Below are positions 2,709 to 3,758 of a DNA stretch of 35,349 nucleotides, piece by piece. The notes beneath the pieces are model-generated. The model had not been told where the DNA came from, did not search any database, and saw only the letters and a list, made by a program, of their open reading frames with translations. The DNA is taken from the IMG/VR virus record IMGVR_UViG_3300042505_000337, positions 1-35,349 of that record; one strand, 5' to 3'. Origin of the DNA: a virus. Numbering within the stretch: the first letter of the stretch is position 1; each line of letters begins with the position of its first letter. Both the position numbers and the translations under genes were made by a program.

Positions 2709-3389
2709 CTAGAATGGGTTCATATCAACAACGGGCTGTTCATCTTGCCAACGCCCTTGGTTTAAGTATGTTGCAGGGTTTGGTATAAATTGCCCATCAT
2801 TCCTGCGCCATTGGTCTGATTCTTTTTGCCATGTTAATGCAGGCAATACATCATCAATTCGGGCTTTAGTCTTAGACCAGGACTTTGCCGCCGCATCTTT
2901 GCCAACCTTTTTTGGATATGCTTGCCAAAATTCTTCAAATCCATCATCAAGCGATTTATCGCGAATAGGTTTACTTGCCTTAACTAAACTATCCTTACCT
3001 AACCTAACCTGTGCTTCCACTTTGGCAACATCTTGGAAACATTGTGTATCCATTGTGTAAACATTGTTGTTTTTTATAGTTAATTTAGCCTTTTCATCAA
3101 TGTAAACACTAGGCTTATATCGGTCTTTTTGAATAAGGTTATGAATTTTCCAATGCTTAATTACACACACGCCACTTTCAAACGGTATGACAAAATTCTT
3201 AGCCATCAATATCTTTAAATCATCATCCGCGCAACCAATCATTCGCTGTATTTTTTTAGCGTTGTTTATAAATCCATCATCATCGGCACGCATTGATAAA
3301 TGAAAATATAATGATTGTGTGGAACAAGGCATATCTAAAAACGCATCGCTGTCAATGATGGTTTTTGCAAACATTCTTCGTTCAGCCAT
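2709..3389 (-). CDS. Phage replisome organiser (replication initiator)
   Basis: 226 aa. The N-terminus MAERRMFAKTIIDSDAFLDMP followed by LYFHLSMRADDDGFINNAKKI is the hallmark of the phage replisome-organiser N-terminal winged-helix domain. The C-terminus (FEEFWQAYPKKVGKDAAAKSWSK ... FIPNPATYLNQGRW) is the DnaD/helicase-recruiting type tail seen in many phage initiators. Such proteins bind origin DNA and recruit helicase and loader. A GGGGGAAAG ribosome site lies 5 bp before the ATG, directly after a structured leader and a U-run, with a promoter and DnaA boxes further upstream. Confidence 0.88.
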   Translation of the reverse strand: MAERRMFAKTIIDSDAFLDMPCSTQSLYFHLSMRADDDGFINNAKKIQRMIGCADDDLKILMAKNFVIPFESGVCVIKHWKIHNLIQKDRYKPSVYIDEKAKLTIKNNNVYTMDTQCFQDVAKVEAQVRLGKDSLVKASKPIRDKSLDDGFEEFWQAYPKKVGKDAAAKSWSKTKARIDDVLPALTWQKESDQWRRNDGQFIPNPATYLNQGRWQDEQPVVDMNPF

Positions 3390-3400
3390 TTCTTTCCCCC

Positions 3401-3486
3401 AAAAAAAAGGGCTACAACTACTAACTCCACCTTTTTAGGGTGGTTGGTGGAACGGTCTAGTAACCGCCAGTTAGTATGTGTAGCCC
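3401..3486 (-). ncRNA. Structured leader / attenuator before the replication operon
   Basis: An 18-bp arm at 3409-3426 pairs with 3469-3486 at 16 of 18 positions. Inside lie two smaller hairpins, CCACC/GGTGG (3427-3431 with 3439-3443) and CGGT/ACCG (3453-3456 with 3463-3466). On the minus strand the closing stem is followed at once by eight T (3408-3401), then the ribosome site of the initiator gene. The shape is that of an intrinsic terminator with a branched loop, so it could act as an attenuator or riboregulator. It is not a recognised riboswitch class. Confidence 0.65.
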
Positions 3487-3519
3487 CACTAGATTTAATC
3501 GCCACCACGCGATTTGTGA

Positions 3520-3548
3520 ATCTTAATTTATCTAATTTAACTTTGCAA
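3520..3548 (-). promoter_or_regulatory. Promoter for replication genes
   Basis: Minus strand TTGCAA (3548-3543), 17-bp spacer, TAAGAT (3525-3520). The same hexamers recur in the plus-strand early promoter near 5294. Expected start near 3513, giving about 124 nt of leader that contains the branched hairpin before the initiator gene. Confidence 0.65.
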
Positions 3549-3673
3549 GCGTTTATTTACAACCTTATTTTAGCCAAAAATGCCTGTTTTAGCACTTTAA
3601 TCATGCCCACCAAGGGGCTTTTTAAGCGTTTTGACGCGTTTTAAGGGTCGGCTATATGGTAGCCTTACCGCCT

Positions 3674-3758
3674 TGTGGATATGCTGTGCATTAAACGGCT
3701 AAAATCTGTGGATGAATTGTGCATAACTTTTTGACTAAAACGCCAAAACTGTGGATAA
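3674..3758. other. DnaA-box array, likely replication origin
   Basis: The 371 bp between 3390 and 3760 hold no gene. Five DnaA-box-like 9-mers, all in one orientation, lie at 3674 (TGTGGATAT), 3685 (TGTGCATTA), 3707 (TGTGGATGA), 3718 (TGTGCATAA) and 3750 (TGTGGATAA). The last is the exact complement of the consensus TTATCCACA; the fourth fits TTWTNCACA. Boxes 1-2 and 3-4 form pairs 11 bp apart, and the pairs repeat 33 bp apart. An AT-rich stretch at about 3515-3600 may be the unwinding element. GCGTTTT repeats near 3626-3642 could be initiator sites. Confidence 0.72.

Follow-up and report, generated by a model that had tools for sequence, protein, structure and literature searches.

A structured leader in front of the replication initiator gene

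The window, by which we mean the whole 35,349-nucleotide stretch of viral DNA that was analysed, carries a replication gene on its minus strand. Ahead of this gene lies a structured leader containing an RNA element that we assign to a family named here family A. The features of the locus, from the promoter to the gene, are:

3543–3548, minus strand: −35 element TTGCAA (from the sequence)
3520–3525, minus strand: −10 element TAAGAT (from the sequence), with a probable transcription start near 3513
3405–3515, minus strand: the family A element, consisting of P1, P2 with a three-way junction (P3, P4) and then a U-run, with pseudoknots PK1 and PK2
3497–3514, minus strand: P1, the 5′ hairpin at the extreme 5′ end of the leader (helix 1, 96.2% of cells paired)
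3502–3508, minus strand: 5′ strand of PK1, formed by the P1 loop (GUGGUGG in the window, UUGGCGG in most relatives)
3487–3493, minus strand: 5′ strand of PK2 (UCUAGUG) in linker J1/2, directly abutting P2 and complementary to the P3 loop
3469–3487, minus strand: 5′ strand of P2, 19 positions with a central mismatch
3451–3468, minus strand: P3 hairpin, opening with a G-U pair
3456–3462, minus strand: 3′ strand of PK2 (UACUAGA) in the P3 loop, pairing with the linker
3444–3450, minus strand: 3′ strand of PK1 (CCACCAA), the junction strand J3/4, pairing with the P1 loop
3427–3443, minus strand: P4 hairpin (from covariation)
3408–3426, minus strand: 3′ strand of P2, the closing strand of the terminator-like stem (from covariation)
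3401–3408, minus strand: run of eight U directly 3′ of P2 (from the sequence)
3396–3400, minus strand: ribosome-binding site GGGGG, outside the structure (from the sequence)
2709–3389, minus strand: DnaD-like helicase loader or replication initiator, the first gene of the operon, with its ATG at 3389 (phrog_8489, E = 1.5e-78)

The initial annotation had described a TTGCAA-17-TAAGAT promoter, which was located at 3520–3548 on the minus strand, and a leader of about 124 nt, a length that agrees with the distance to the ATG from a start placed near 3513. The minimum free energy fold also bore out its long stem enclosing two hairpins and followed directly by eight U; P1 and both pseudoknots had been missed. 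The fold of the window leader has a z-score of −2.9, and 3 of 200 dinucleotide-shuffled sequences were as stable. A terminator scan of the window returned nothing, because the branched stem exceeds the loop limit of the scan. Translational control through sequestering of the ribosome site was rejected, as the GGGGG site is not part of the fold.

Just upstream of the leader promoter, at 3674–3758, lies a cluster of DnaA-box-like 9-mers, with TGTGGATAA at 3750–3758 and variants at 3674, 3707 and 3719. The cluster is likely a replication origin, and similar boxes occur in relatives L001, L004 and L005. A 45-bp stretch at 3603–3647, centred on a GCCC-GGGC hairpin, is 84% similar to non-coding DNA of Enterococcus phages (blastn, E about 1e-3); this weak similarity looks like a shared hairpin and was set aside as unrelated to the leader.

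Conservation and distribution of the leader RNA

Proteins related to the loader were taken from viral contigs and the DNA upstream of their genes was compared. About two thirds of the close loader relatives (21 strong matches) carry the same type of leader. Viral contigs were then scanned with a DNA pattern that left everything free except parts of the P1 loop, its partner and the T-run. Family A proved widespread, with at least 130 pattern matches, and accompanies several kinds of replication protein. Among the matches listed, the two 7-mers are exactly complementary in 124 of 130 and not in the other 6, and they occur in several versions (GGCGG 85, GGAGG 13, GACGG 11, GCAGG 9, GGTGG 4); a few of the 124 complementary matches listed lack the rest of the architecture. 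A covariance model trained on 31 diverse members, with the window excluded, matches the window once (80.8 bits, E = 1.3e-15). The window shows the full family A architecture: P1-P2(P3,P4), PK1, PK2, a 19-position P2, a promoter before P1 and a U-run after P2. The covariance check on relatives that the initial annotation had called for was thus run and found conserved pairing, and the proposed leader came through it strongly.

Across 98 distinct sequences, P1, P2, P3, P4 and PK1 are paired in 98.3% of cells, and in 28 of the 37 pairs both sides have changed. The score for covariation was 0.637, against 0.184 in shuffles (reached in 0 of 500) and at most 0.10 when the pairing was slid. PK1, between the P1 loop and the junction strand, is paired in 99.6% of cells, and three of its pairs have undergone compensatory change; the invariance of PK1 is partly imposed, because the pattern by which most members were collected fixed some PK1 bases. 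The pairing is nonetheless kept in members found without the pattern, namely the window, L005 and L015 (both found through their proteins), L378 and Iodobacter phage phiPLPE. In L378, UUGGUCG pairs with CGACCAA, and in phiPLPE a U-A pair replaces the usually fixed G-C. PK2, between the linker after P1 and the P3 loop, has a mean of 5.8 contiguous pairs; when partners are swapped the figure is 3.4 and never exceeds 3.68 in 200 trials. The 5′ strand of P2 is exactly 19 nt long in 91 of 98 elements, with a mismatch near its middle, and the base of P3 is a G-U pair in all 97 members with letters at that position. In relatives L001 and L004, P4 is a stem of different sequence in which pairing is retained. 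Nearly all conserved bases fall in helices or pseudoknots, and no unpaired conserved pocket is apparent. These data confirm that the leader is real and conserved, and that it is more structured than the initial annotation had recognised.

Within the conserved pairs, 276 G-U cells stand against 7 A-C cells, and 177 against 5 once the fixed G-U pair and the mismatch column are left out; it is therefore the sense-strand RNA that selection keeps. In 94% of 64 independent loci P1 is immediately preceded by a −10 hexamer, compared with 8–17% of control windows, which places P1 at the extreme 5′ end of the leader. The sense RNA starts at P1 or within a few bases of it and folds into P1-P2(P3,P4) with two pseudoknots under strong selection. 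At its other end, the leader closes with the terminator-like stem and U-run before the ribosome site; at least five U follow the stem in 21 of 23 elements found without the T-run requirement. Two copies in bacterial genomes (L329 and L330, 1501–1602) have only three U after P2 and lie beside genes resembling HNH/AP2 endonucleases; they are possibly decayed or carried by a mobile endonuclease.

The same signals bear on two further readings of the locus. An element acting as DNA, such as an origin hairpin, would fit the DnaA-box-like 9-mers just upstream in the window and in close relatives, but the excess of G-U over A-C, the conserved promoter at the 5′ edge and the U-run make this barely credible. 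An attenuator controlled by a countertranscript from the other strand, as in plasmids pIP501 and pT181, would account for a leader and terminator ahead of a replication gene. However, among the 64 independent loci the antisense strand showed no −10-like enrichment in or after the element, and antisense terminators were no commoner than in the control (6 against 7 of 94), so we consider this reading very improbable. Integron attC-like and T-box-like readings were considered by eye and dropped.

Family A elements are short, strongly conserved and found in many freshwater and soil phages ahead of DNA-replication genes. Exactly one copy is present in 11 of 15 records searched, comprising ten viral records and a Polynucleobacter genome; the four without it carry family B or C. 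In searches of host genomes, matches were found in 3 of 398 (family), 2 of 399 (order) and 1 of 369 (class) genomes, with the Polynucleobacter genome among them each time. Matches in Photobacterium and Deinococcales genomes (L324, L325) were dismissed as chance pattern matches without the architecture. In the cultured Polynucleobacter strain the element sits in a prophage-like region, adjoining a repressor-like gene and a replication gene. In the cultured phage phiPLPE it occupies the space between gp08 and gp09 and precedes the antirepressor gene ant, which is nearby in no other carrier.

The gene that follows the element usually serves replication and is sometimes an HNH, GIY-YIG or ParB gene. 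First genes encode DnaD-like, DUF1376, Lin1244-like and other replication proteins, as well as HNH/NUMOD4, GIY-YIG and ParB-like proteins. The initial annotation had described a leader in front of the replication initiator. Its promoter, structured leader and terminator logic ahead of such a gene stand; the RNA is not tied to the gene in question, the DnaD-like helicase loader, because unrelated replication proteins, endonucleases and ParB-like genes also follow it. This variety of first genes behind a constant element points to transcriptional control at the level of the operon.

Two records gave observations on annotation. In L379 (MW202462.1), the annotation places a hypothetical protein (UOF77143.1) antisense over the RNA element at 817–1059 and omits the replication gene at 1027–1728 on the opposite strand. 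L381 (PQ492659.1), the 39-kb Limnohabitans phage DC33, is filed under Inoviridae, a family of filamentous phages that are normally much smaller; this taxonomy looks wrong.

Proposed attenuation and its alternatives

A second, unrelated leader, family B, consists of two long hairpins with mutually complementary 7-nt loops, the second hairpin being the predicted terminator. It precedes replication genes and covaries, with loop pairs GGUCAAG/CUUGACC, GGACAAG/CUUGUCC, GGACUAG/CUAGUCC and GUGCAAG/CUUGCAC, and one of 6 nt (GAGCAG/CUGCUC); its carriers include L009, L011, L085, L089, L104, L119, L120 and L143. In the one carrier locus scanned against Rfam (L009), the family B leader had no match. A third kissing-loop leader (GUGCAAG/CUUGCAC) with different stems was seen upstream of a related loader in L031 (2395–2490) and in L021. 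In L010 (type A) and L011 (type B), the first 150 residues of the loader are identical and the promoter and ribosome site nearly so, while the leaders are unrelated; A and B leaders have therefore been exchanged as cassettes. What the two families share is a plan in which the loop of a 5′ hairpin is complementary to the apex of the terminator stem. That an unrelated family has the same plan and swaps with family A suggests attenuation.

We give about even weight to the reading that family A attenuates transcription in cis from the extreme 5′ end of an early phage operon, against all others together. In its favour are the covariation of P1–P4 and PK1, the complementarity of PK2, the excess of G-U over A-C, the −10 box directly before P1, the varied first genes and the ribosome site free of the structure. 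In addition, a stem followed directly by a U-run stands upstream of the first gene, and the geometry of PK2 would set the pseudoknots against the terminator. PK2 shares the first nucleotide of P2. In a straight A-form model with P2 complete, the end of PK2 lies 17–20 Å from the nucleotide that it must join, where about 7 Å is allowed; this is a coarse rigid-body estimate, and the central mismatch could bend P2. On the same coarse rigid-helix model, PK2 can form only if two or more of the basal P2 pairs beside the U-run open. PK2 could thus not coexist with a complete P2 in this model, which favours an attenuator whose pseudoknots work against the terminator.

In such an attenuator, P1, P3, PK2 and then PK1 would, given the order of synthesis, be able to form while the 3′ strand of P2 is still to be transcribed. 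With the linker next to the base of P2 held in PK2, the last pairs beside the U-run would stay open and the polymerase would read through. If the pseudoknots were disturbed, P2 could zip to its base and transcription would stop, the product being a stable leader RNA about 110 nt long. Candidate triggers are a host factor, the speed of transcription, or a terminated leader that pairs in trans through the same loops and would thereby signal dosage or immunity. We infer termination and switching by the leader, and the RNA is probably an on/off valve for its operon. The strict 19-position length of P2 is not explained by switching alone, and the two bacterial copies with only three U (L329 and L330) also count against attenuation.

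The terminated leader could instead be the product: a trans-acting small RNA for immunity or copy-number control, whose loops pair with the leader as it is transcribed, either from the same phage or from one that co-infects the cell, the operon being made by read-through. The layout of promoter, RNA and terminator, with stems at both ends, would suit such an RNA. By analogy with IsrK and the P4 CI RNA, three observations make it plausible: two unrelated leaders are swapped between a near-identical promoter and an identical initiator, as immunity cassettes are; the loop pairs vary in sequence yet stay complementary; and the phiPLPE element precedes gp09 and ant, much as IsrK of Gifsy-1 precedes an antirepressor gene (PMC4825925). 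Intramolecular pairing, however, is enough to explain the covariation, and we regard this reading as possible but rather unlikely. With slightly more reserve still, we raise the prospect that these leaders form a class of phage regulatory RNA that has so far gone undescribed. Two pseudoknots, together with a terminator stem of an invariant 19 positions, would make up a protein-independent switch, and the terminated leader would signal immunity or copy number by acting in trans as an RNA, families A and B serving as interchangeable specificity cassettes.

Sensing was the suggestion of the initial annotation, which had named an initiator protein, a metabolite or a phage product as the possible signal. 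A ligand- or protein-binding riboswitch or an autoregulatory leader, with P2 as the expression platform, would match the compact two-pseudoknot fold and its strongly conserved junction bases. A metabolite riboswitch is nevertheless not favoured, because nearly every conserved base sits in a helix or pseudoknot; the neighbours, replication genes and endonucleases, are not a metabolic context either. Feedback by the initiator is disfavoured by the A/B swap, in which identical initiators follow unrelated leaders. The initiator is near-universal among carriers (10 of 11 genomes) and no other phage protein is common to them, so that a shared phage-encoded regulator was also rejected: the one candidate fails on the same swap. 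Sensing of these kinds is improbable overall, and so, in equal degree, is an RNA like putL of phage HK022, whose fold binds RNA polymerase and makes it resist pausing and downstream terminators. Such an RNA would occupy the same place, directly after an early promoter, and would fit the rigid dimensions of the element, its varied downstream genes and the fact that only the replication initiator is common among the 11 genomes. A U-run directly after the stem would be odd for a pure antiterminator, and put, in the accessible part of its description, is an RNA of about 70 nt with two hairpins, with no U-run or pseudoknot mentioned.

Relation to known systems

Searches of Rfam 15 with the window and 12 loci gave no RNA match at the gathering threshold except a tRNA, and permissive scans of the window element and L261 gave chance matches only; the c4 antisense RNA (RF01695) had no covariance-model match in either set. 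The searchable literature holds analogues but no description of family A; subscription papers and some motif collections were outside this search. Family A works like a known kind of regulator, the leader attenuator, with an architecture that matched no family checked. We know of few phage early operons with RNA-only control. Should the switch prove real, it would illustrate the gating of a terminator by pseudoknots with no ligand involved, and the exchange between A and B leaders suggests a specificity between phages that is based on RNA. The cultured carriers, Iodobacter phage phiPLPE and the Polynucleobacter strain, are open to testing.

Several known leaders resemble family A in part. The rep leaders of IncI and IncB plasmids are controlled by a pseudoknot, act on translation and have an antisense RNA. 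As in family A, they precede a replication gene and have a UUGGCG-type U-turn loop that pairs with a strand farther downstream; in family A, by contrast, the ribosome site is free and no antisense promoter was seen. The crcB and pfl riboswitches are likewise conserved structured leaders that overlap a terminator (PMC2864571), whereas in family A no unpaired conserved pocket is apparent and the terminator stem is itself conserved and of fixed length. HK022 put is also a structured RNA right after an early phage promoter and independent of the downstream genes. It works without protein factors and suppresses termination (PMC9378689); the family A fold is not a two-hairpin RNA of some 70 nt, and it ends in a terminator-like stem.

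Two further parallels are phage-borne RNAs. Gifsy-1 IsrK and c4 have the layout predicted for family A, with a promoter, a structured RNA, an intrinsic terminator and read-through into an operon, and IsrK stands ahead of an antirepressor operon as the family A element does in phiPLPE. Unlike family A, c4 pairs antisense with ant mRNA, at its ribosome site; the family A pairings are internal and its usual neighbour is a replication gene. The phage P4 CI RNA, with seqA and seqC, is similarly an untranslated leader of a replication operon, with RNA–RNA pairing and with premature termination of the kind predicted for family A. There, a processed antisense RNA acts against flanking copies, whereas family A is one compact element with two pseudoknots and its own predicted U-run terminator.
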